Assembly: GCA_031271405.1 (NCBI GenBank)
Contig: JAISVT010000014.1
Location: 1 to 54,062 of the forward strand
Reading direction: 5' to 3'
Length of the DNA stretch: 54,062 nt
Origin: Candidatus Endomicrobium macrotermitis
Lineage (GTDB): Bacteria > Elusimicrobiota > Endomicrobiia > Endomicrobiales > Endomicrobiaceae
In this document: piece by piece, positions 5,983-44,436 of the stretch
Layout: each line of letters opens with the position of its first letter
Position numbering within the stretch: position 1 is the first letter of the stretch
Translations under genes and position numbers: made by a program
Notes under the pieces: model-generated
What the model saw: only the letters and a program-made list of their open reading frames with translations
Told to the model about the DNA's origin: nothing
Database searches by the model: none

Positions 5983-8900
5983 GTGAAGAAGTTTTTTATT
6001 CCGCTGATTTCGGCATCATTGCTTGTTTTCGTTTTTACGCAGGTTTCCTTTTCCGGGCCGCGTCCGGATTATCCAACTGCTTCAGCAGCCGGCAGAAGCA
6101 GTCTGCTCAGGGCTTTCCCGGGAAATTTTACAAAACCTAATCCGGGAGGAGCCGCAAGCCTTACGAACTATACTTCAAAGATGCCGGCAGCAAGGCTGGA
6201 TTCTTCCTTTGTTTCTCAGACTCCTTATCCGACAAATAAGTGGTACACCTCTCTTTTTACAAATCCCGTTGATGTCAGTAATACTACACAGAGCAAGTTC
6301 GGCAACAGATTTGCCGTTTCTCCTATGGTCGCGGTGTATTCTTCGAGATTTCCTTACGTATGGGATGAGGGAGACGGCTGGTCGGACGGCGGCGGATACG
6401 GGTATTCTTTGGGCGGGCAAAGCATTAAAGTTGACGCGCAGGGTTATGTTCACGTCAGCAATGCTTTGGCTTTTGCGGTTCAGGGCGCCAAAACCGGTAC
6501 CAATACCGACAGCAATGCCAATATTATTCACGGCTCCTCCCTCACGGTAAAAAGTTATTCGGACTGGGCTGTTACTGCCGTTTTGCAGGACGAAACGGAT
6601 CCTTCCAAAAGAATGACTACGACTTTCGGCAGAGGGTTTGTTTTTACTTATAATACTTTCAGCCCCGGAGTAAATCCGCGATTAAGAGCAAAGTATGTAA
6701 GCGCTGACGGAGACGTTACTTATTATTACGATAATAACGGAACAATGACTGACGCCGGCAACAATGTGACGATAACGACGGATCATATGATGATGAGGGT
6801 AAGAATAAATAAAACCGATACAAATTCGGGTTACGCATTAGGCGCCGTTGTCAACGAGTATCAGTATTTCGGCATATATGCCCCGCAGGGTACGACGTTT
6901 ACGATAAGCCCTTATAATTCGTCATATAGGGCTTATTTAAATATAACTTTTCCCGCCGCCGCGGCGGCCGAGGAAGACAGATATTTATCCATAGCGCTTT
7001 TAAAATCTCCTTCGACGCAAGACGATACCGGAGCTTTTCAGCTTTTCAGGGATTATTACGCTTATGCTTATAATTTTGTGACCGACACGCAGGTAAGCTG
7101 GGATTATGATCAAAGCCGGTCTGAGGTTACTGCAAATTATAATTTTACTTTTGACGCCAAAAGGACGGGCGGCGGTTTTATTGCGAATCAGACCGTGTTT
7201 GCCATGTATCCGCATCACTGGAAAAATCTTGTAGGGACTCCCAACAGAAGCAATACGTATAATTCTATCAGGGGGTTGCTCAAAGTAAGCGCGGGAAGTT
7301 CTTTTTCGACAAAGCATAATTTTAACGGCATCGTGCCTTTTTTGTCTTATGAAGTTCCTCAGGGAACGGAATCCGCCAAGCTCCAATCTTACATCGATTA
7401 CGATGAAACGTTTGAGCCTTCGCAGGCGCGCATAGAAAATGCCTGGAAGGGAAATTCCAATACGTATTATCACGGAAAAGCCGTTGCCAGAGCCGCAAAC
7501 CTTATACCGGTTTTTCATCAGCACGGAGATTTTGCCGCCAGAGACGCTATGGTAAACAAACTTAAAACCGAGCTTGCAACATGGTATTCGGGTTCTTCCT
7601 CAATTAAAAACTTCGGATATGACGCGGCATGGGGCGGAGTCATAGGTTCAAATCCGGGCGGTACTGTCAACGATTTCGGAGCAAGCCAGTTTAACGATCA
7701 TCATTTCCATTACGGATATTTTATTTATGCTTCGGCAATTCTTGCCATTTATGACCCTGAATTTGCTTCGTCTTCGCAATATAAAGGCATGGTGGATCTT
7801 CTTGTCAAAGAAATTTACAATCCTGTCAGAAATGACCCGAGTTTTCCTTTCTTGAGAAATTTTGACGTTTACGAAGGACATTCGTACGCAAACGGAAGGG
7901 GCGGCGGAGACTTTTTTTACGGCAATGACGAAGAGTCCACTTCGGAAGCTATGAACTCGTGGGCTGCCGTATATTTATGGGGTCTTGCGACAGGCAATCA
8001 GGACTGGATAGATTTGGCGGTGTACGGATACACTACCCAGTATGAAGCGACCAGAAACTATTACTTTAATATTGACGGCGATATTTGGCCGAGAAGCAGT
8101 TTCAATCATTCGAGCGTAGGAATGCTTTTTGACAGTACGTACAGATGGTCTTTATGGTGGACGCCTATAATCACGCAGACCGTTATGGGCATTCAGGTTT
8201 TGCCGCTTACGCCGTCTTTGCTTTATATGGGTTACGATACCGATTATGCGGAGCAGTTTTATAATGAAATGTGGAACAATAAAGATACTTCAGGAGAAAG
8301 AAGTAAGCTCTGGAGAGACATTTGGTTAAGATATGAATCTCTTTTCAACGCTCCGCAGGCTTTGGCAGACTGGGACAGTGCAAATTTGTCGGCAAATTTT
8401 CCCGACACTTTCAATACCGGCATAGGAGACGACGGAAGCAGCATGAGTTTTTCGTATCATTTTATACACTTTTTTAATGCCAAGGGTACGGTCGATACCG
8501 GTTATTATGCCAGCGACCCTTCTTTTCTTGTCACAAATAAAGACGGAGAAAGAACTTTCTTCGCGTATAATGCCGATAAACAGCATTCCAAGACCGTGAA
8601 TTTTTATAAACGGGATCAGTCTCAGGCAGCGCCGCGCGCCCGTGCGCTTGCAGCTTCCGTACCGGATGTGCCTAATGTCGGCAGCGTGACGCTTGCTCCC
8701 GGCACCATGGCCCAGACTAAAGATTTTGTCGATTTTGAATATACTTATACGGATATGGACTATACGGCCAATTACAGTTCCAATACCGAAAGAGACGTTT
8801 ACAGCATTTTTTCCGATAACTTTATCGGAGCGGTCTTGGGCGGAAATAACTATCAGGATAATCTTGCGCTTGATTCGTGGGATGGCACCATAACTCATAA

Positions 8901-9942
8901 TACGATTGAGTCTTTTTCGGATTCTTATGAGGGAAATAGGTATCTGTCTGCGGCAAGGAATAACTCTCTTGACTGGGGAGGGTGGGCATTCAGTTTTGCC
9001 GGCGGCGCGGTAGATATGTCTTCTTATCTTAACGGAAAAATCGAAGTCAGCATTAAACTGGCTTCGGCTTCTCCGGCGGCGGGCGATTTTGAAATAGGCT
9101 TTAAAGCCATAGAGGAGATATGGTTTAAACTTTCGGACCTCGGTTTTAACCCGTCTCTGACTTCATGGCAGACTGTTTCTATACCTTTGAATGCCTCTTC
9201 AAGCCAGCTGATAACCGATGTAAGCCTGGGTTATGTAACGCTCCCTTTTATGATGAGGCATAATTCGGAAAATTTTCAAAGCGGGTTGGACGTTGCGGTA
9301 CATATCGATTCCGTTTTATGGAAAAAGGCGGAGATTTTGTCTCCTTTTTCCGCAGTGCTGAAAAGCCGCGCCGACAATATGGCGGCTGAAAAAATAGGAT
9401 GGACTGAATCCGATTTTAAACGTAAAAATGCGGTAGCGCAGCAGTATATCGAAGTAGGCTTAAATAATGCCGAAGGGAACTCATGGTGCATTCAAATATA
9501 TACGGACAATAAATCTTCGGTTACTTTGACGGACGCGCTGTACAGCGGCAATATCGATTCAGGCACGGTTTCGGGTCTGGCGAGATCCGGCAATACAGGC
9601 TCCGCGATGCTTCCGATGATGTGGAGAGTTGCGTCCGAGATTTTCGATTTAAACGTTTCAAGCGAAACCCTTGTCAATACCGGAGAGGCGTACGGCATGA
9701 TGGTGTGGGGGCCTATGAGGGACGTTTCGGCTTTTTCGAACGAGCCGGGTTCGGGGCTCGGCAACGGCAGCGAGCAGGTCATAGTTTGGGACAGGCAGGG
9801 ATTCAAATGGGACCAATGGGGCATGCAGCGCGGAGTGCCGCCGGACGACAAAAAAGTCAGAATATATTTTCTTGCCGATTTTACCGGCGCCACAAGGGCT
9901 TTGTATAAAGCAAATATCGTCGTAGAATATTTTAACGAGTAA
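5983..9942 (+). CDS. Secreted GH81 endo-1,3-beta-glucanase
   Basis: A 1319-residue exported enzyme of glycoside hydrolase family 81, expected to cut beta-1,3-glucan (laminarin, callose, fungal wall glucan) by inversion. The signal peptide spans roughly residues 1-24. Family marks are PTNKWYTSL early on, FNDHHFHYGYFIYA with D572, and GNDEESTSEAMNSW at 647-659, where the glutamates include the expected catalytic base. The GH81 catalytic unit covers about the first 800 residues. The rest is beta-rich, with a jelly-roll-like part near 950-1120 (YLSAARNNSLDWGGWAFSF) that could bind carbohydrate, and an unassigned end. The start is a GTG with AAGGA 8 bases upstream. The gene is monocistronic and is the only polysaccharide-degrading gene in the window. 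Confidence 0.92.
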   Translation: MKKFFIPLISASLLVFVFTQVSFSGPRPDYPTASAAGRSSLLRAFPGNFTKPNPGGAASLTNYTSKMPAARLDSSFVSQTPYPTNKWYTSLFTNPVDVSNTTQSKFGNRFAVSPMVAVYSSRFPYVWDEGDGWSDGGGYGYSLGGQSIKVDAQGYVHVSNALAFAVQGAKTGTNTDSNANIIHGSSLTVKSYSDWAVTAVLQDETDPSKRMTTTFGRGFVFTYNTFSPGVNPRLRAKYVSADGDVTYYYDNNGTMTDAGNNVTITTDHMMMRVRINKTDTNSGYALGAVVNEYQYFGIYAPQGTTFTISPYNSSYRAYLNITFPAAAAAEEDRYLSIALLKSPSTQDDTGAFQLFRDYYAYAYNFVTDTQVSWDYDQSRSEVTANYNFTFDAKRTGGGFIANQTVFAMYPHHWKNLVGTPNRSNTYNSIRGLLKVSAGSSFSTKHNFNGIVPFLSYEVPQGTESAKLQSYIDYDETFEPSQARIENAWKGNSNTYYHGKAVARAANLIPVFHQHGDFAARDAMVNKLKTELATWYSGSSSIKNFGYDAAWGGVIGSNPGGTVNDFGASQFNDHHFHYGYFIYASAILAIYDPEFASSSQYKGMVDLLVKEIYNPVRNDPSFPFLRNFDVYEGHSYANGRGGGDFFYGNDEESTSEAMNSWAAVYLWGLATGNQDWIDLAVYGYTTQYEATRNYYFNIDGDIWPRSSFNHSSVGMLFDSTYRWSLWWTPIITQTVMGIQVLPLTPSLLYMGYDTDYAEQFYNEMWNNKDTSGERSKLWRDIWLRYESLFNAPQALADWDSANLSANFPDTFNTGIGDDGSSMSFSYHFIHFFNAKGTVDTGYYASDPSFLVTNKDGERTFFAYNADKQHSKTVNFYKRDQSQAAPRARALAASVPDVPNVGSVTLAPGTMAQTKDFVDFEYTYTDMDYTANYSSNTERDVYSIFSDNFIGAVLGGNNYQDNLALDSWDGTITHNTIESFSDSYEGNRYLSAARNNSLDWGGWAFSFAGGAVDMSSYLNGKIEVSIKLASASPAAGDFEIGFKAIEEIWFKLSDLGFNPSLTSWQTVSIPLNASSSQLITDVSLGYVTLPFMMRHNSENFQSGLDVAVHIDSVLWKKAEILSPFSAVLKSRADNMAAEKIGWTESDFKRKNAVAQQYIEVGLNNAEGNSWCIQIYTDNKSSVTLTDALYSGNIDSGTVSGLARSGNTGSAMLPMMWRVASEIFDLNVSSETLVNTGEAYGMMVWGPMRDVSAFSNEPGSGLGNGSEQVIVWDRQGFKWDQWGMQRGVPPDDKKVRIYFLADFTGATRALYKANIVVEYFNE

Positions 9943-36384: not shown

Positions 36385-39300
36385 ATGAGCATGATAAAGA
36401 AAGGTATTTCAATATTATTGGCCATAGCTTTGATTGAGACTGCGGCTTTGGGCAGTATGCCTCCCGCTCAGCCGGTTTTTGCGGCGGAATCTAAAAATCT
36501 GCCGTCATTTTCGGATTTAGGCGGAGTAACGGGCGGAAAAGATTTCGGCTCGCCGGGAAGGATAATAATAATACAGGATTTGCACTGCCATCCTCAGGTG
36601 CAAAAAAATATCGGCTCGATAATAGAGATTCTTGACGATAAATTCAAAATAAACAATATCTACCTCGAAGGCGCGCACGGAGACGTTGACATCGGCTGGC
36701 TTACCGCCATAAAAGACAAGACCTTTTCGGATAATATCGCGCAAAAACTGCTTGAAAGCGGAAAACTGACCGGCGCGGAATATTACGCTTATAAACGTAA
36801 TTCCGGGTCGAAACTTAAAGGCATAGAAGACGAAGAAATCCATCTTGCCAATTTAAAAAGGCTTTCGCAAATAACGGAACTTCAGCCTGAAATAACCGCG
36901 ATACTGTCGGATCTTTCCGGTTTCCTCAAACAAAGCCAAAAACAAAACTACGGCGCTTTGAACCGTAAACTCGCTTCTCTTTCCGGTAAATACCGTTCAG
37001 GAAAAATAAATTCGGCGGGCTATTATAAAAAGCTTTTAAAATACGCCGAAAAAGCCGAAAAATTAAAAAGTTTTGCAGGGGATTTTAACGTAAATACTGA
37101 CGATTATCCGGAAATATTGAAGTTTTCGGAATCTTCGAATAAACTAAAAAAAATAAACTTGAAAACCGTTCAAACGCAGCTTTCCCGGATTGTGAACGAA
37201 TTAAAAAGTTCTCTTCCTTACGGCGCATATTCCGAATTTCTGGCAAAAACAAATTCGTTAAGCGATACCGGCGCGCTGATAAAAGAGCTTGAAAGATTAA
37301 ACTCCGGCGGTTTTATAGATTTCGGCAAATATAAAGAAGCGGGCGAATTTATTTCCGCGCAAAATTCCGCGGCGGATATTAACCCGATAAAGCTTATCGG
37401 CGAAGAAAGAAAATTTTTGAAAGCGCTTCAGGTTAAAGCCTCCGAAAGCGAAAAAGAAATGCTGACAGTCATAATTTCCGATATGTTCTCCTATTTCTCG
37501 GATTATTACACGGCAAGCCTTGCGTCGGACGATTATAAATACCTAAAAGCGTTCGGAACGGAAAATTACAGGCATTACTGGCAAAAAGCCGCAGGGTCTC
37601 ATGACATATATTTGCTTGATAAATACGACGCTTTACTGGAAGAGTATTATGAAACCAACATTAACAGGGATAAAATATTTACACAACACATATTTGACGG
37701 AAATGAGCCGTCCGGCATAAACCTGATAGTCTGCGGAGGGTTCCACACGCAGGGACTGGCAGAAGAGTTTGAAGAAAAAGGAGTAAGTTATACCGTAATT
37801 ACTCCTAAGGTTACCCAAGACGCCGCAATCGCGGACGAGATATATAATGAAATGCTTTTGAGCGGTTTTAAAACCGAATCTTTTGCCATAGCCTTGCAGG
37901 CAATATCAAACGGAGGAAGCCAAAAACAATTTACGCTGATTTTGGAAACCCTTCTGGCCGACGAATTAAAAAGAAATCCGAACTTAAACAAAGAAGAATT
38001 TATAAACGGTATCGTAAATAAAATATGCGATATCGACGAATCCGAACTTAAAAACGGCGGACTTACGGCAGTTTACAACCGCCCGGTAAACGAAGGCGTT
38101 AAGCTAAACGGCGACGGCAGCGTAGAAGTAAGCATATTTTTTGAAAATAGCAGGCAAAAACACGTTATCGCGGTAAATACGAAAGAAACGGCTCCTTACG
38201 CTTCGATCTTCGGCGCAAAATATGCAAAAACCGCCCCTTTGTGGGAGTGGGTGTATTTATTGCCGTTTTCAATACCGTTTTTAAAAAGCAGTAAGTTCAA
38301 GGCTTTCTTAAGCAATACATTCTTGCGGGGTGTGGAAGCGAGAGACATCAACAAAGTATTGAGAAACAATAAGAGGCTTAATATTTCGGATTTTATTTCA
38401 TCTTCCTTGCTGCTTTCTGCGATTTTTTTGCTGCCCCAAACTCTGCCTTTTGTGATAATTGCCTACTCGGTATTCAAATCGCTGGCGTTCGCATCTTTCC
38501 ACCAGAATAAATTTAATATCAGAGGAGGCGCAAAATTCAGTTCCGTATTTGTGTCGTCGCTTGTTACGCTGCTTCCCATTAATCTTATATTAATAATTGC
38601 AGGTCCGGCCGGCCTTGCCGCTGCCGTTATTTTAGGAATACCGCTTCAAGTATTGCTCCATGAACTTTATAATGTATGGCTGGCGCCTTCAATAGCCGCC
38701 CGTTTGCACAAAAACTATGTTTATACCGACAGCGAGTTGATTAAGTATTTTGATGATTTCAGCGAAGAGATAGACCTGTCGGATTTTAACAAAAGCGTGC
38801 CTTCTGCCGATGCGCGCAAATTTGAAGTCATGCTCAAGCTTTTTAATCTTAACAGGAATAAGGATACAGTAAACAGAATATTGCCGGTACTGCTGCAAAT
38901 ATCCGGAGATTTATCGCATAAAAAACAATCCGGAAAAATTGTATTAAGGATTAATGAATCCATATCTTCTCAGCTTGAAAATATGGATAAAAGCATTGCG
39001 CGATATATAGCGTCATCGGAAAGTAAAGAGGACTCATTTAACTTTTTGCTCATATCGGCTCAAAAGAATAAGCCTCGCGCGCTTTCCGAAATAGTTTCGA
39101 ATCAAAATATTGATGTAAGATACAGACTGTACGCGTACGGCCTTTTGAGAAGTTCCGGTTCATATTTAAATGAAAATAAAAAAAGAGAGCTTACTGAAAA
39201 AGCGCGAAGGCTTATACACAATTTTGAATGGAGAAAAGATTTAGGACATATATATGACGGCACCATATTTTACAATGAAGAATTACAGGCTTACGTCACG

Positions 39301-42300
39301 GCAGTTTATCTGATAATGGTTGCGGAACACCCCGGGTTTATTAACAGAGAAAGTTCCGATGTATTTAAAACGATAACAAAAGCAAGATTTGACGCCAGAT
39401 ACCGCAATGCCGACTCTTCCCTATCGTTCGGGAAAGATTTTTTTAAGGTTCCTGCGCAGCAAAGAGTATTTCCTGAAATTATTGCGCATGAGCTTGCGCA
39501 CATTCATCTCACAAATTTAAAGTTTTCTCCGATAAAAAAAATCGCGATTTTATTGATTTTCCTGCCCGAAAATAAATTTACGCGAAAACTTATCTTGAAT
39601 TTGCAGAGGGCGGTAATTCACGAGTTATATGCCGATGTCGCCGGATATTTGTTGAGTAAATCTACCGGAAGAAATCCTGAAAATTTTTATAATGCGATGC
39701 TGGCTCCTTTCTTGAAAAATTTTCCTAAATCTACGGAATTTACGGATGAGCATGAAGGGGCAAGAATTCAGTTCAGCCAGCTTATTGAAATGCTTAAACA
39801 CGACCGTCGCAGTATCGATTATTATAAGTTTGCCGGTCTTTTTGACAGAAAACTGCGCAGAAACATAAAAAATTCGGAATTATATTTCAGGGAGTTCTTT
39901 TTTGACCTTGCCGAATCTTATCTCACGCGCGAAGGATATAAAACCGTAAGCGAGCCTGAAGATTTACAAAGCAACGATGTTATTACCGTAAATGAATTGC
40001 TGGATTCTTTTTACGCTTCGATATTCGGCGGCGAAAATGCCGCCGCCGCTCCGTTTTGGGAATGGGTTTATATGCTTCCCGGAGTAAGTTTTTTTGTTGA
40101 AAAAGGCGGGTTTGCAAAAATACTCTCAAAAACTTTCTTGCGCAAAAAAAGCGAAGAAGAAATAAAAGGAACTCTGAAAACCGGCAAAGTTTCCAAAATT
40201 ATCGACGCGGCGGGGATAATTGCTTTTGCCGGTTTTTCATTGAGCGGCCTTGGCATTGCCGGACTTGCCGCATTTGCGCTTACCAGAGCGATAATTTTTT
40301 CCATGGCTCACAAAGGTTTTGACTGGAAAGCGCACTGGAAAGACAGGACTTTGATAAGTTCTCTTGTGTTCAGTTCTTTGCTGTTTTTTATTCCGTTTGC
40401 GGTCATATGCGCTCCTCTGGCGTTTTTCAGTATTAACGTTATACCTGCCGTTGCCGCGGGACTCTCTTTAAATATTCTTTTACACTCCGTTTATAACAAA
40501 TATATCGCTTCGTCGTTTTCTTTAAAAAAAGCTTCCATAGCGGCAGAACAGTCCGCGGAAGAAAAACAAAGTTTTATAGCGGGTGTCATAAAAAGCAAAT
40601 TGTCCGGAAAACTCGGTATTTCGGAAGAGAAAATCGAAATCAATCCGGCGTATGAAATACCGTACGGTTCAATCGGAACGCTTGCGGAATATTTTTATTC
40701 TGCGGTAAAACTTTCGAAAGCCGAAAACGGAAATATCGTTTCAAATATTCCGAAATCGTTTCTGTTTGCGCTTCACGGTCTTAACGGCGCGGAACGCGAT
40801 GAGTATATTGAAACTTTTGCCGAAAATCTTACGGCTTTGTACGAAATCATGCTAAAAGTTCCGGCTGATAAGCGCGATGAATCGGCAAATGCTCTTATGA
40901 ACGCCTTAAATGACAATATCGCCGATTTTGCGAAAACCGCATTTCTGGAGTACGCGTTTTCTTCAGCCGTTACCGTTCCTTCATTTGACGAGATTTCAAA
41001 ACTTGCCGGATATATCGGAAAATTGTCTTTTAAGTGGTCGGCAGTAAACAGAGACCTGTTGTATTTTATTTCCAAATCGAAAGACTTGGTTAAAAATTTC
41101 GACGGCAAAACGAGAAATATGCTGTTGTTTCAGTGTATCGAATTTTTAGGGTATATTTTGCAAAGCCAGACTTGGCTTTCTCCGGCGCTTTATGACGGAC
41201 AATACGGTTTTATGCAGGATACCGCTACGGCTCCGAGGTACGAGCGCGAGTTGGCTCATACGGGGGATATCGATCCGGTTTTTAAAACGATACTCTCAAA
41301 TCACCGCAGAACGCAGATTATAAAAACCAAAGAAGCCGCGCTTTTTGAATACATAGCCGACAGAGGAAACAGAATCGGCTCTTCTCTTATACTTCCGGAC
41401 AGCATAGGGGAGGGTTTTAAAAATATCGACATCTCATCTTTGGAAGATAAAGTGTATTCCGCGTATATTTTGGATGAAAATGAAACCGCTTCTCTGCTTA
41501 AACAGAGAAATTCCCGCTCAATTACGGACAGGTATTTTATAATAGACTGTTCGCAGCACGGCGATGTAGCGGCGATTGCCGGAAGCATCGATAAATACAA
41601 TGAGAGCGTGAGCGATAAACTTAAAATAAAAGAAGTTTTATTTTATAACGCCGATTTGAAAGATTATGTTTTGTCGGACAAAAAATTCTCTTTTTTGACA
41701 GCTTACATATTTGATTTTCCAAAGTTTGTAACGGATGAAAATAGCAGGGAATCCGTGTCGGATTTGTTTACGAATATTCCTGCCGTATATGCCGCGGACG
41801 ACGGGTTTGTTTTAGATTTCGGCAGCCGTCTGGACAATTTTACGATTCATTACTTGTATTTGCTTATGGACAGGGAGTCTATAGTTCACACGGCATCCGA
41901 AAGCGCGGCAAGACGCAGAGATTCGGCTTTCCCTGACATGGAAACCGCGGAGGAATATAAAAAACTGTATGTCAGGCTTGAGGAATCGCTTAAAAAATAT
42001 AATTTTTTTGACGGCGCGAAAAAGAAATTTTACAACACCGTAATGGAAAACCTTTCGGTTAATATCAAACGTTTAAATTATTATGCCGAAGGTAAATACG
42101 TAAGCGCGAGAGATTTTAACGACATTATAGATGAATACAGAACCTTTTTAAATTTCCTGCTTTATTTTCAATGGTCGGACAGAAAAGACAGAAACCATAT
42201 GATTTCAGATGCCGAAAGGTCCGGTTTAGCCGGGCAGTTTAACGGGTTTATGATAAAACCGAAGAATTCCGCAGGTGTTCCTTTTTCTCAGGATACCGTT

Positions 42301-43788
42301 TTAACCGCAAGCGGAATGTCGGCCGTAAAAACCATAGCGGCGATGCTTATATCGGAAAATATTTCCAAAATAGCGTTAGGAAAAAATATTTATTATGAGA
42401 ATAAACATATGTTTAAGAATCTGAATGCTTTTACAAATCCCGAGACATTTAAAGAAGGAGATACTGCGGCGATATTAAATCTTGATTCGGAAGCCGTATT
42501 TTTTGATTTGATTTCCAACGACTCGGAAATTCCGGTCGCAGACGTAAAACGCGTCGTTTCGGAACTTGCGAAAAGAAAATACGGAACGCCTTTTTATCTG
42601 TGCATAGACAACAGCATGTATCCGTCTTTTCAGTTTAACGGCATTTTTGACGGGATAGATTTGCCGGATAATATGTACATTGTAATTTACGGCAGCATGC
42701 AGAAAATGCATCAAAGAGGGCTTGAAATTGTAACTTCCGGATTTTTGACTTTGATGTCAAACGGGCATAACCATGAAGAGATCTTAAACCGGTTAAAAGA
42801 CTCTTCAAAATTTACTTCGTCCGAAATAGATACTTTCCGGCATATAGCTTTAAGCGAATTTGCGGATAGAGACAGTTTTCTTGCGCGTTCGAAAGAGCTT
42901 AACGACAACGCGGAAGCCGCGGCTTTGGCGCTGAACGGCATAGCAAAAATATTCGGGAACGTTTTCCGTGTGTATCATCCGTCTTTATACTCCGGAGAGC
43001 AGAAAAGAATGTGGGAAGAAAACGGAAGCGCCGGAATCCCGTTCTTTTTTATAAAAGGAAGCAAAGACGGAGTCGGGAATAATATTGACAAGTTTCTTGA
43101 ATATTTATTTAAGAAATTTATTAAGGAGACCGCTTTTTCGCCTCTTGTCAGAGACAGTTACGGGTTTGATTCTTTCACCAACATAACTTACGGCTACGGA
43201 GACAGGGCGGCAAGGTTTAACGCAGGGCTCGATATGGGCCGTGACGCAGATAAATTTTTAGATACGTTTGCCGGAGCGGCTTTTGAATATTTTTCCCGCG
43301 GCGGCGCGGAAGAAGAAGGAACTGCTGAAGATTTACAGGTTGAAAGAATATATTCTTATGTAAAAGAGCAGCGAGGCTACAGGGCGCAAAATTCGGATCA
43401 GGCTGTTTATGAGTATGTTAACGGCATAAATCATTCTGTTTTATCGGATGAAAATGTGCTGAAAATGCTGATTATTTGCGGTATTTTGGAAAAATCCGCC
43501 CCTGAAGAAATAAAAGCGCGCGCTTATGAAATATTAAGCGGGGAAATTACCGTAGATTTAAGCGGCATTTATATTGAGGCTTTGCCTTATTACGGAAAAC
43601 CAAATAGGGAGGTTACCGGAAAATTAACAGAATTTTTTATAAACGGCAGTTCGTCGCAGCAGGGCGCTGCTGCCGCTTCTTTAGCCGCGGTGCTGGAACC
43701 GCCTGCGGTTGAGCACAGCATAGACGGTTTTGATTCGGGCGCAGGGTATTCGGGAAGGTTTATTGCAAATATGCTGGCCGCGGCATAA
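36385..43788 (+). CDS. Giant exported multidomain protein (QDLHCH, HExxH and PLP-fold regions)
   Basis: About 2467 residues (numbered from the ATG at 36385; ATG 36391 or TTG 36373 are alternatives). In order: a signal or anchor helix (8-30); an N-terminal domain with QDLHCHPQVQ (64-73), YLEGAHGD (93-100) and CGGFHTQG (450-457), whose His and acidic residues suggest a metal-dependent or TraB/ChaN-like fold; membrane module A (about 605-770, APLWEWVYLLP); an M48-like zincin site, HELAH (1035-1039) and HELYAD (1079-1084); membrane module B (about 1208-1380, APFWEWVYMLP); a helical unknown part; and a region like fold-type I PLP enzymes of Cys/Met metabolism (about 1940-2305): ASGMSAV, IDNS (2074-2077), GSMQKMHQRG with K2107, and RFNAGLDMGRD. 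No family covering the whole is known to me. A second member starts at 53773. Confidence 0.85.
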   Translation: MSMIKKGISILLAIALIETAALGSMPPAQPVFAAESKNLPSFSDLGGVTGGKDFGSPGRIIIIQDLHCHPQVQKNIGSIIEILDDKFKINNIYLEGAHGDVDIGWLTAIKDKTFSDNIAQKLLESGKLTGAEYYAYKRNSGSKLKGIEDEEIHLANLKRLSQITELQPEITAILSDLSGFLKQSQKQNYGALNRKLASLSGKYRSGKINSAGYYKKLLKYAEKAEKLKSFAGDFNVNTDDYPEILKFSESSNKLKKINLKTVQTQLSRIVNELKSSLPYGAYSEFLAKTNSLSDTGALIKELERLNSGGFIDFGKYKEAGEFISAQNSAADINPIKLIGEERKFLKALQVKASESEKEMLTVIISDMFSYFSDYYTASLASDDYKYLKAFGTENYRHYWQKAAGSHDIYLLDKYDALLEEYYETNINRDKIFTQHIFDGNEPSGINLIVCGGFHTQGLAEEFEEKGVSYTVITPKVTQDAAIADEIYNEMLLSGFKTESFAIALQAISNGGSQKQFTLILETLLADELKRNPNLNKEEFINGIVNKICDIDESELKNGGLTAVYNRPVNEGVKLNGDGSVEVSIFFENSRQKHVIAVNTKETAPYASIFGAKYAKTAPLWEWVYLLPFSIPFLKSSKFKAFLSNTFLRGVEARDINKVLRNNKRLNISDFISSSLLLSAIFLLPQTLPFVIIAYSVFKSLAFASFHQNKFNIRGGAKFSSVFVSSLVTLLPINLILIIAGPAGLAAAVILGIPLQVLLHELYNVWLAPSIAARLHKNYVYTDSELIKYFDDFSEEIDLSDFNKSVPSADARKFEVMLKLFNLNRNKDTVNRILPVLLQISGDLSHKKQSGKIVLRINESISSQLENMDKSIARYIASSESKEDSFNFLLISAQKNKPRALSEIVSNQNIDVRYRLYAYGLLRSSGSYLNENKKRELTEKARRLIHNFEWRKDLGHIYDGTIFYNEELQAYVTAVYLIMVAEHPGFINRESSDVFKTITKARFDARYRNADSSLSFGKDFFKVPAQQRVFPEIIAHELAHIHLTNLKFSPIKKIAILLIFLPENKFTRKLILNLQRAVIHELYADVAGYLLSKSTGRNPENFYNAMLAPFLKNFPKSTEFTDEHEGARIQFSQLIEMLKHDRRSIDYYKFAGLFDRKLRRNIKNSELYFREFFFDLAESYLTREGYKTVSEPEDLQSNDVITVNELLDSFYASIFGGENAAAAPFWEWVYMLPGVSFFVEKGGFAKILSKTFLRKKSEEEIKGTLKTGKVSKIIDAAGIIAFAGFSLSGLGIAGLAAFALTRAIIFSMAHKGFDWKAHWKDRTLISSLVFSSLLFFIPFAVICAPLAFFSINVIPAVAAGLSLNILLHSVYNKYIASSFSLKKASIAAEQSAEEKQSFIAGVIKSKLSGKLGISEEKIEINPAYEIPYGSIGTLAEYFYSAVKLSKAENGNIVSNIPKSFLFALHGLNGAERDEYIETFAENLTALYEIMLKVPADKRDESANALMNALNDNIADFAKTAFLEYAFSSAVTVPSFDEISKLAGYIGKLSFKWSAVNRDLLYFISKSKDLVKNFDGKTRNMLLFQCIEFLGYILQSQTWLSPALYDGQYGFMQDTATAPRYERELAHTGDIDPVFKTILSNHRRTQIIKTKEAALFEYIADRGNRIGSSLILPDSIGEGFKNIDISSLEDKVYSAYILDENETASLLKQRNSRSITDRYFIIDCSQHGDVAAIAGSIDKYNESVSDKLKIKEVLFYNADLKDYVLSDKKFSFLTAYIFDFPKFVTDENSRESVSDLFTNIPAVYAADDGFVLDFGSRLDNFTIHYLYLLMDRESIVHTASESAARRRDSAFPDMETAEEYKKLYVRLEESLKKYNFFDGAKKKFYNTVMENLSVNIKRLNYYAEGKYVSARDFNDIIDEYRTFLNFLLYFQWSDRKDRNHMISDAERSGLAGQFNGFMIKPKNSAGVPFSQDTVLTASGMSAVKTIAAMLISENISKIALGKNIYYENKHMFKNLNAFTNPETFKEGDTAAILNLDSEAVFFDLISNDSEIPVADVKRVVSELAKRKYGTPFYLCIDNSMYPSFQFNGIFDGIDLPDNMYIVIYGSMQKMHQRGLEIVTSGFLTLMSNGHNHEEILNRLKDSSKFTSSEIDTFRHIALSEFADRDSFLARSKELNDNAEAAALALNGIAKIFGNVFRVYHPSLYSGEQKRMWEENGSAGIPFFFIKGSKDGVGNNIDKFLEYLFKKFIKETAFSPLVRDSYGFDSFTNITYGYGDRAARFNAGLDMGRDADKFLDTFAGAAFEYFSRGGAEEEGTAEDLQVERIYSYVKEQRGYRAQNSDQAVYEYVNGINHSVLSDENVLKMLIICGILEKSAPEEIKARAYEILSGEITVDLSGIYIEALPYYGKPNREVTGKLTEFFINGSSSQQGAAAASLAAVLEPPAVEHSIDGFDSGAGYSGRFIANMLAAA

Positions 43789-43857: not shown

Positions 43858-44436
43858 TTATTTAGCCGCTTTGAGAGATTGTAAAAGCGCATCGGCCTGC
43901 TCCAAAGCTTTTTTGTTTTTGTCATCCGCCTGCCTCATTATTTCATCGGCTTCCCTGTCTGTCGTTTCTCTGGCATTTTTTGCTTCTCTGAGCATTAAAT
44001 CGATTTCCGATACGGATATTTTATACTCGTTGTTTGCTCTTTCTTTTATGGCGTTTGCCTGGCTTTCAAGGTTTTTTGCTTCAAGTTCCGCCTGTTTTCT
44101 TTTTGCCGCCGCCTGTTCTTTTATGACGTCAGCTTTCGCTTTTACGTCCTGTTCTTTTATCTTGGCGTCGTTTTTTATCTTTTTTACGTCTTCCGCAGCT
44201 TTTTTCTTTTCGGCGTTTGCCTGATTTTTTATTTCCTTTGCCTGGGCTTTTACGTCGTCGGCGTTTATTTTTACGTCTTGTTCCGTTTGCGTATTTTCCG
44301 AAGCAACGGGCGCAGTTGGAACCGACGTGACCGTAGCCGGAGACGTTACCGTGCCGCTTTCCGTCTGAGCCGCCGCCAATCCCGCCGCCGATACGATAAA
44401 TCCCGCCGCAAATACAGCTGAAAACAATTTTTTCAT
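43858..44436 (-). CDS. Exported Ala/Lys-rich coiled-coil protein
   Basis: 192 residues. Signal peptide about 1-23 (GFIVSAAGLAAAQ), a Thr/Val/Pro-rich linker to about 50, then a nearly continuous charged helix to the end with heptad-like KxxAE and QA patterns (for example VKAQAKEIKNQANAEKKKA). It should form a long periplasmic coiled coil, like Lpp- or OmpH-type spacers, but lacks a lipobox. AGGGAGAAG precedes the ATG. It is the last gene of the minus-strand cluster begun by mnmG, and ends in the bidirectional terminator. Confidence 0.8.
   Translation of the reverse strand: MKKLFSAVFAAGFIVSAAGLAAAQTESGTVTSPATVTSVPTAPVASENTQTEQDVKINADDVKAQAKEIKNQANAEKKKAAEDVKKIKNDAKIKEQDVKAKADVIKEQAAAKRKQAELEAKNLESQANAIKERANNEYKISVSEIDLMLREAKNARETTDREADEIMRQADDKNKKALEQADALLQSLKAAK

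Follow-up and report, generated by a model that had tools for sequence, protein, structure and literature searches.

A Family of Giant Proteins with a Probable TIKI-like Head in Candidatus Endomicrobium macrotermitis That May Carry Metabolic Enzymes out of the Cytoplasm

The window, that is, the whole stretch of 54,062 nucleotides of Candidatus Endomicrobium macrotermitis DNA analysed here, contains a giant gene that reads from an ATG codon through 2467 amino acids (Table 1); the mechanical ORF begins earlier, at TTG 36373. The first-pass annotation had proposed one continuous frame of about this length, and the comparison with other genomes bore it out. Full-length orthologues were found in Ca. 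Endomicrobium embiratermitis (L076, 63% identity) and in an Endomicrobium sp. (L077, 39% identity), and a third one in E. labiotermitis is split by contig ends into L054 and L075. All four genes occupy one shared chromosomal site, with rsmG on one side in 4/4 loci and an EFR1 ferredoxin/mnmG block on the other wherever the contig extends far enough. In E. proavitum (G001), rsmG directly adjoins EFR1, which represents the empty site with no giant gene. A dN of 0.27 and a dS of 1.33 against the E. embiratermitis orthologue (ratio of about 0.2) show purifying selection on the window gene; with orthologues at the same site in three species as well, the 2467-residue frame is not a chance one.

Beside the empty site of E. 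proavitum (L267:3624-10214) lies a 2197-residue, repeat-rich putative surface protein of a different type. The E. labiotermitis orthologue (L075, L054) apparently contains two copies of the unit formed by membrane module and PLP domain, and this doubling suggests growth through in-gene duplication. At its 3' end, the window stops within the first 110 residues of another TIKI-headed giant, nearly identical to a giant on contig C62 of genome G000 (L069), and such near-identical heads probably caused the assembly break. A further window gene, at 5983-9942, encodes a 1319-residue protein with a GH81 (endo-beta-1,3-glucanase) domain at its C-terminal end, a plausible fit for a bacterium of the termite gut.

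Table 1. Coordinates of the giant gene, its domains and its predicted functional sites in the window
Feature	Position	Strand	Basis
Giant gene, 2467 codons + stop	36385..43788	+	Open frame, orthologues in three species, dN/dS about 0.2
Sec-type signal peptide, residues 1-33, VFA/AES	36385..36483	+	Sequence
Constant N-terminal TIKI/ChaN/Ere-like domain, residues about 45-490	36517..37854	+	pLDDT 92.6
D65-x-H67, first predicted active-site motif	36577..36585	+	Invariant in 46 + 27 distant copies
E95, 28 residues past H67	36667..36669	+	Invariant; spacing as in Ere, RRSP (PMC6254334)
R428, basic residue preceding last His	37666..37668	+	Invariant
GGFH (G451-H454), last predicted active-site motif	37735..37746	+	GGxH invariant in 46 + 27 copies
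Membrane module 1, residues 608-794: WEWVYLLP ... FASFH ... HELYN	38206..38766	+	Module HMM E 5e-69
Gluzincin-like domain, residues 800-1200	38782..39984	+	Conserved motifs; weak M48 E 0.13
HELAH (1035-1039), predicted zinc site	39487..39501	+	H1035, E1036, H1039 invariant, 4 orthologues
HELYAD (1079-1084), third-ligand motif	39619..39636	+	E1080, D1084 invariant
Membrane module 2, residues 1213-1409: WEWVYMLP ... FSMAH ... HSVYN	40021..40611	+	Module HMM E 7.5e-87
Fold-type-I PLP domain, Cys/Met-metabolism type, residues about 1880-2330	42022..43374	+	Profile, fold, conserved residues
K2107, predicted Schiff-base lysine	42703..42705	+	Invariant in 9 homologues
Tail FIANMLAAA, last nine residues	43759..43785	+	[LM]x[AS][AGS]-COOH family pattern
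Start of second family member, cut by contig end	53731..54062	+	Nearly identical to L069

The whole window protein gave no match in Pfam, NCBIfam or PDB, and matches came via short segments and family alignments. From these, the protein reads in the order of signal peptide, head domain, membrane module 1, gluzincin-like domain, membrane module 2, an unassigned stretch of 480 residues, PLP domain and tail. The motifs picked out by the first-pass annotation all lie where it had placed them: QDLHCHPQVQ, YLEGAHG and CGGFHTQG in the head; HELAH and ELYAD in the gluzincin-like domain; and ASGMSAV, IDNS (D2075), GSMQKMHQRG (K2107) and RFNAGLD (R2277) in the PLP domain. Its N-terminal helix could be specified as a Sec-type signal peptide.

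What that annotation missed is that the QDLHCH region is a TIKI/ChaN-like domain. In the AlphaFold2 model of the head, which was built with 46 homologues, a helical insert about 290 residues long interrupts the beta core. Thirteen residues are invariant in the 46 copies, including D65, H67, Q73, E95, N425, R428, G451, G452 and H454, and the distance of 28 residues from H67 to E95 is kept in 45/46 copies and in 24/27 distant copies. The published TIKI set consists of Glu-x-His, a Glu 28 residues on, a basic residue and a GxxH-type His (PMC6254334). In the giants, the first-strand His, the Glu at +28 and the C-terminal GxxH His correspond to H67, E95 and H454, and the invariant R428 provides the basic residue ahead of the last His. 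The active-site order and spacing, as well as the beta core with helices, match the TIKI superfamily (ChaN, PF04187; erythromycin esterase, PF05139; TraB/PrgY; Tiki; RRSP), and PF04187 matches distant giants of the head family, one of them above the cut-off (31.2 bits). However, the head differs from the superfamily in the invariant Asp (D65) that replaces the first Glu, in the helical insert and in its constant position at the N-terminus of giant proteins. Also counted against the assignment, together with this Asp, are a nonsignificant best Foldseek match in PDB (EreC, E 0.3, prob 0.47) and a direct hhalign to ChaN that was weak and not significant. A TIKI-like hydrolase is thus the probable, not the proven, identity of the head.

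The two membrane modules are homologous to each other, flank the gluzincin-like domain and both carry WEW, FxxxH and HxxYN. FxxxH and HxxxN, each present twice, are motifs of CPBP/Rce1-type proteases, but motif 1 of these proteases, EExxxR, is replaced by WEW. The modules had no match in Pfam, and the membrane modules of the giants stay under the CPBP/Rce1 cut-off; all three CPBP motifs (EESVFR / FTWAH / HSANN) are present in the paralogue L070, with an Rce1-like Pfam E value of 0.054. For the domain between the modules, the M48-type zincin proposed earlier was upheld at the level of motifs, as HExxH and the downstream ExxxD, which M48 peptidases share, are present with their residues invariant. 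It was not upheld at the level of the profile, in which the M48 score was 12.5 bits against a cut-off of 20.3. We consequently describe the HELAH/ELYAD site as predicted to be gluzincin-like, short of M48 membership. That both the zincin and the membrane modules remain under Pfam cut-offs counts against these module assignments. Weak matches to DUF1722, BldD, DUF4231 and similar entries were discounted as chance or helical bias.

The PLP-enzyme-like region fared better. The segment matched PF01053 with an E value of 7e-6, and since its 25.3 bits lie under the curated cut-off of 27 bits, we regard the domain as a relative and do not file it as a member; 4/9 PLP-domain members match this profile. 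A profile search of PDB found O-acetylhomoserine thiol-lyase at 3e-4, and Foldseek with a poor model (pLDDT 59) returned fold-type-I enzymes, the top matches all being of the Cys/Met type (methionine gamma-lyase / cystathionine gamma-synthase, E 1e-9, prob 1.00). Across nine homologous domains, K2107, D2075, S2104 and R2277 are invariant, so that the predicted Schiff-base Lys, pyridine-N Asp and substrate Arg are all in place, and K2107 aligns with the SATK lysine of the separate, canonical Cys/Met enzyme encoded by the same genome. The SGM loop, Tyr, Asp, S-x-x-K and carboxylate-binding Arg follow in the same order as in Cys/Met PLP enzymes, whereas the window domain is divergent and sits inside an exported-looking giant. 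Outside the orthologues, a pair of neighbouring giants on contig C33 has this domain, as do their counterparts in genome G003. The first-pass annotation had called a PLP fold outside the cytoplasm unexpected, which is too strict, because the periplasmic broad-spectrum racemases are PLP enzymes acting there.

The window protein belongs to a phylum-wide family, which had also escaped the first-pass annotation. The window genome has 19 to 20 TIKI-headed giant genes (a protein search gave about 20 loci, nearly all via the first 500 residues), and 19 family ORFs make up 6.8% of its DNA. In a profile search, head matches numbered mostly 10 to 24 per genome in large-genome Endomicrobia, 0 to 4 in the small-genome genus g8, 0 in the cultured E. 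proavitum and 12 to 56 in other Elusimicrobiota families. The longest frame seen, in Endomicrobiales, has 12,656 residues, and one in other Elusimicrobiota has 12,444; the head occurs once per giant, close to the protein start. All 80/80 named matches in GTDB genomes were Endomicrobia, a result of one peptide pattern that says little on other phyla. The small genomes of g8 would fit the intracellular Endomicrobiellum (PMC11257099), and the lineage is probably intracellular; the scarcity of giants there ties the family to life outside host cells, and the lack of a copy in E. proavitum indicates that it is dispensable for free-living gut life. The head was not found in the phage or plasmid records searched. 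A 1520-residue ORF with a distant copy of the head lies on a contig filed as viral (L212; IMGVR_UViG_3300045144_000334); this contig is probably bacterial DNA, and the ORF is probably not a phage gene.

Huge proteins are known to be abundant in Elusimicrobiota, and a survey gave none of them a functional category (PMC11573180); the giant ORFs of Omnitrophota were reported to be poorly conserved (PMC10066038). Our giants share the phylum (Elusimicrobiota), the size class and the multiple membrane segments with these published proteins, for which no shared domain or family was given, whereas here a common head, an Endomicrobiales tail and types of cargo can be named. Neither 'giant' nor 'secret' occurs in the searched text of the main comparative study of Endomicrobia (PMC11257099). 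We found no description of the TIKI-headed family in the searchable papers, and as far as these go, the earlier remark that no described protein has this combination of domains holds.

Both ends of the giants carry recurrent signals. A hydrophobic stretch is present in 103/103 distinct family N-termini, and an AXA-type site in 71/103, compared with 8% of internal control stretches. At the other end, [LM]x[AS][AGS]-COOH, typically as ILSAA or MLAAA, closes 13/13 complete giants of the window genome, the members lacking it there all being cut by a contig end, as well as both full-length orthologues (L076, L077) and 19/22 fetched 3' ends of giants from other Endomicrobiales genomes; it was found in 0/160 control ORFs of at least 300 residues, a set that includes non-coding frames. 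The remaining 3/22 ends and the complete giant L109 are exceptions, and distant Elusimicrobiota giants end differently, though mostly in A, with IQA, SSA and AA as examples. Such nonpolar tails resemble ssrA tags and the substrates of the periplasmic tail-specific protease Prc/Tsp (PMC5686067). No tmRNA, a possible source of the LxAA tail, was found in the loci examined.

According to this architecture, we consider it slightly more probable than its negation that the giants are exported, TIKI-headed and tail-tagged carriers of enzymes active outside the cytoplasm. Sec would carry the giant chain out of the cytoplasm, and the membrane modules would anchor it. The PLP domain and the TIKI head would come to lie together on the outer side, since two homologous modules should cross the membrane equally often and the crossings should then be even in number. 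The head might act as an endopeptidase or esterase that processes its own chain or a partner, while a dedicated sorting factor or a PDZ-type, tail-specific protease could recognise the tail. The cargo might work at the cell surface, in the periplasm or once it has been released; in the window protein it would be a C-S lyase or a related PLP enzyme, which would probably act on amino-acid or sulfur compounds of the gut. The 32/103 N-termini that lack a clear AXA site count against this reading, as do the giants without the tail (L109 and 3/22 fetched 3' ends) and the absence of any copy from E. proavitum. It also weighs against export that the substrates of many cargo enzymes are phosphorylated compounds or nucleotides, which are normally cytoplasmic, and Sec exports chains unfolded and without PLP. 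The supply of cofactor and substrates outside the cell is the chief difficulty of the exported-carrier reading.

Between head and tail the giants differ from one another, and these variable regions often match enzymes of cytoplasmic type whose active sites are intact. One giant combines UDPGP, PGI (E 5e-166) and PGM/PMM domains I-IV in a single chain; others carry PPDK with the PEP mobile domain, CofD, CBM48/amylase or metallophosphatase, and further matches include HD, RelA/SpoT-like, MFS and six AAA_5 domains. The main rival reading is a membrane-tethered cytoplasmic assembly: the giants would remain at the cytoplasmic membrane, on its inner face, held by an N-terminal anchor, as multi-enzyme assemblies of ordinary metabolism. 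PGI, PGM, UDPGP, PPDK, RelA/SpoT-like and PLP cargo need cytoplasmic substrates or cofactors, the PGI copies retain their active site, and UDPGP, PGI and PGM in one giant represent linked pathway steps. We nevertheless hold this arrangement to be rather unlikely, because most N-termini, with their AXA site, resemble signal peptides that can be cleaved, envelope proteins are where CPBP/zincin modules and TIKI-type hydrolases are typically met, and canonical PGI and Cys/Met enzymes exist in addition, so that the giants are not required for basal metabolism. Wherever a genome has a PGI giant, it has a canonical pgi of 550 residues too, and the idea that the cell's only PGI sits in a giant was rejected on this ground.

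The PGI giant often adjoins this canonical gene (contig C21 in the window genome, and also G012, G021 and G022). On C21 (L065/L272; G000, 46000-63500), a giant of 3727 residues directly downstream of pgi contains UDPGP, a complete PGM/PMM and a second PGI whose catalytic motifs are intact. The giant PGI copies have lost about a quarter of the canonically invariant residues and still retain, where covered, GGR, MES, QHS and GVELGK/GVQLGK with the catalytic R, E, H and K, apart from one fragmented exception. With these motifs retained, part of the cargo at least can probably still catalyse reactions. Their retention also bears on the view that the giants are a surface coat or adhesin filler, in which enzyme folds serve as structural material and catalysis is irrelevant. 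Their very large size, the fast-evolving linkers and the duplicated TM-PLP unit of E. labiotermitis would suit such a filler, but with catalytic residues retained in the TIKI, zincin, PLP and PGI domains and the window gene under purifying selection, we find it very unlikely.

The constant head, the variable cargo and the many paralogues in each genome could also be expected of delivered effectors, which would bring enzymes into rival bacteria or flagellate hosts. MARTX and polymorphic toxins are likewise giant, modular and exported, and in them one end is constant while the enzyme cargo varies; a TIKI domain also occurs in a MARTX effector (PMC6254334), the family is depleted in g8, and the giants of related phyla have been speculated to serve predation or adhesion (PMC10066038, PMC12057145). 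However, the cargo looks like housekeeping enzymes and not like toxins, both ends of the giants are constant (in Endomicrobiales), and the head is their own. No RTX repeats or MARTX-type cysteine protease appeared among the Pfam matches of any giant scanned, and in place of a C-terminal toxin with an adjacent immunity gene, we found a conserved tail and metabolic cargo. No conserved immunity-type partner emerged from the one neighbour tested, a 192-residue ORF (43858-44436, minus strand) that encodes a small coiled-coil protein with a signal peptide; it is present in a few Endomicrobiaceae at one copy per genome and was rejected as a dedicated partner of the giant. Delivery as effectors is thus quite unlikely in our judgment.

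The exported-carrier reading can be extended to a dedicated protein-display system of Elusimicrobiota, which we rate as possible rather than likely. Duplicates of metabolic enzymes would be placed behind a Sec-exported TIKI head and given an LxAA address (at least in Endomicrobiales), catalysis would take place outside the cytoplasm, and new giants would arise beside the donor gene. Whatever their site of action, the shared head and the Endomicrobiales tail turn a mere statistic into one testable family that occupies about 7% of the genome, and open to testing a class of giant bacterial proteins that has long been known but is uncharacterised. Exported-looking chains with intact PGI and PLP domains call into question the rule that enzymes of central metabolism are confined to the cytoplasm. 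Among the other members, a 5192-residue giant on contig C36 of G000 (L061) has a signal peptide, a VWA-like stretch and the six AAA_5 (dynein-related) domains, and an AAA machine bearing an export signal is odd.
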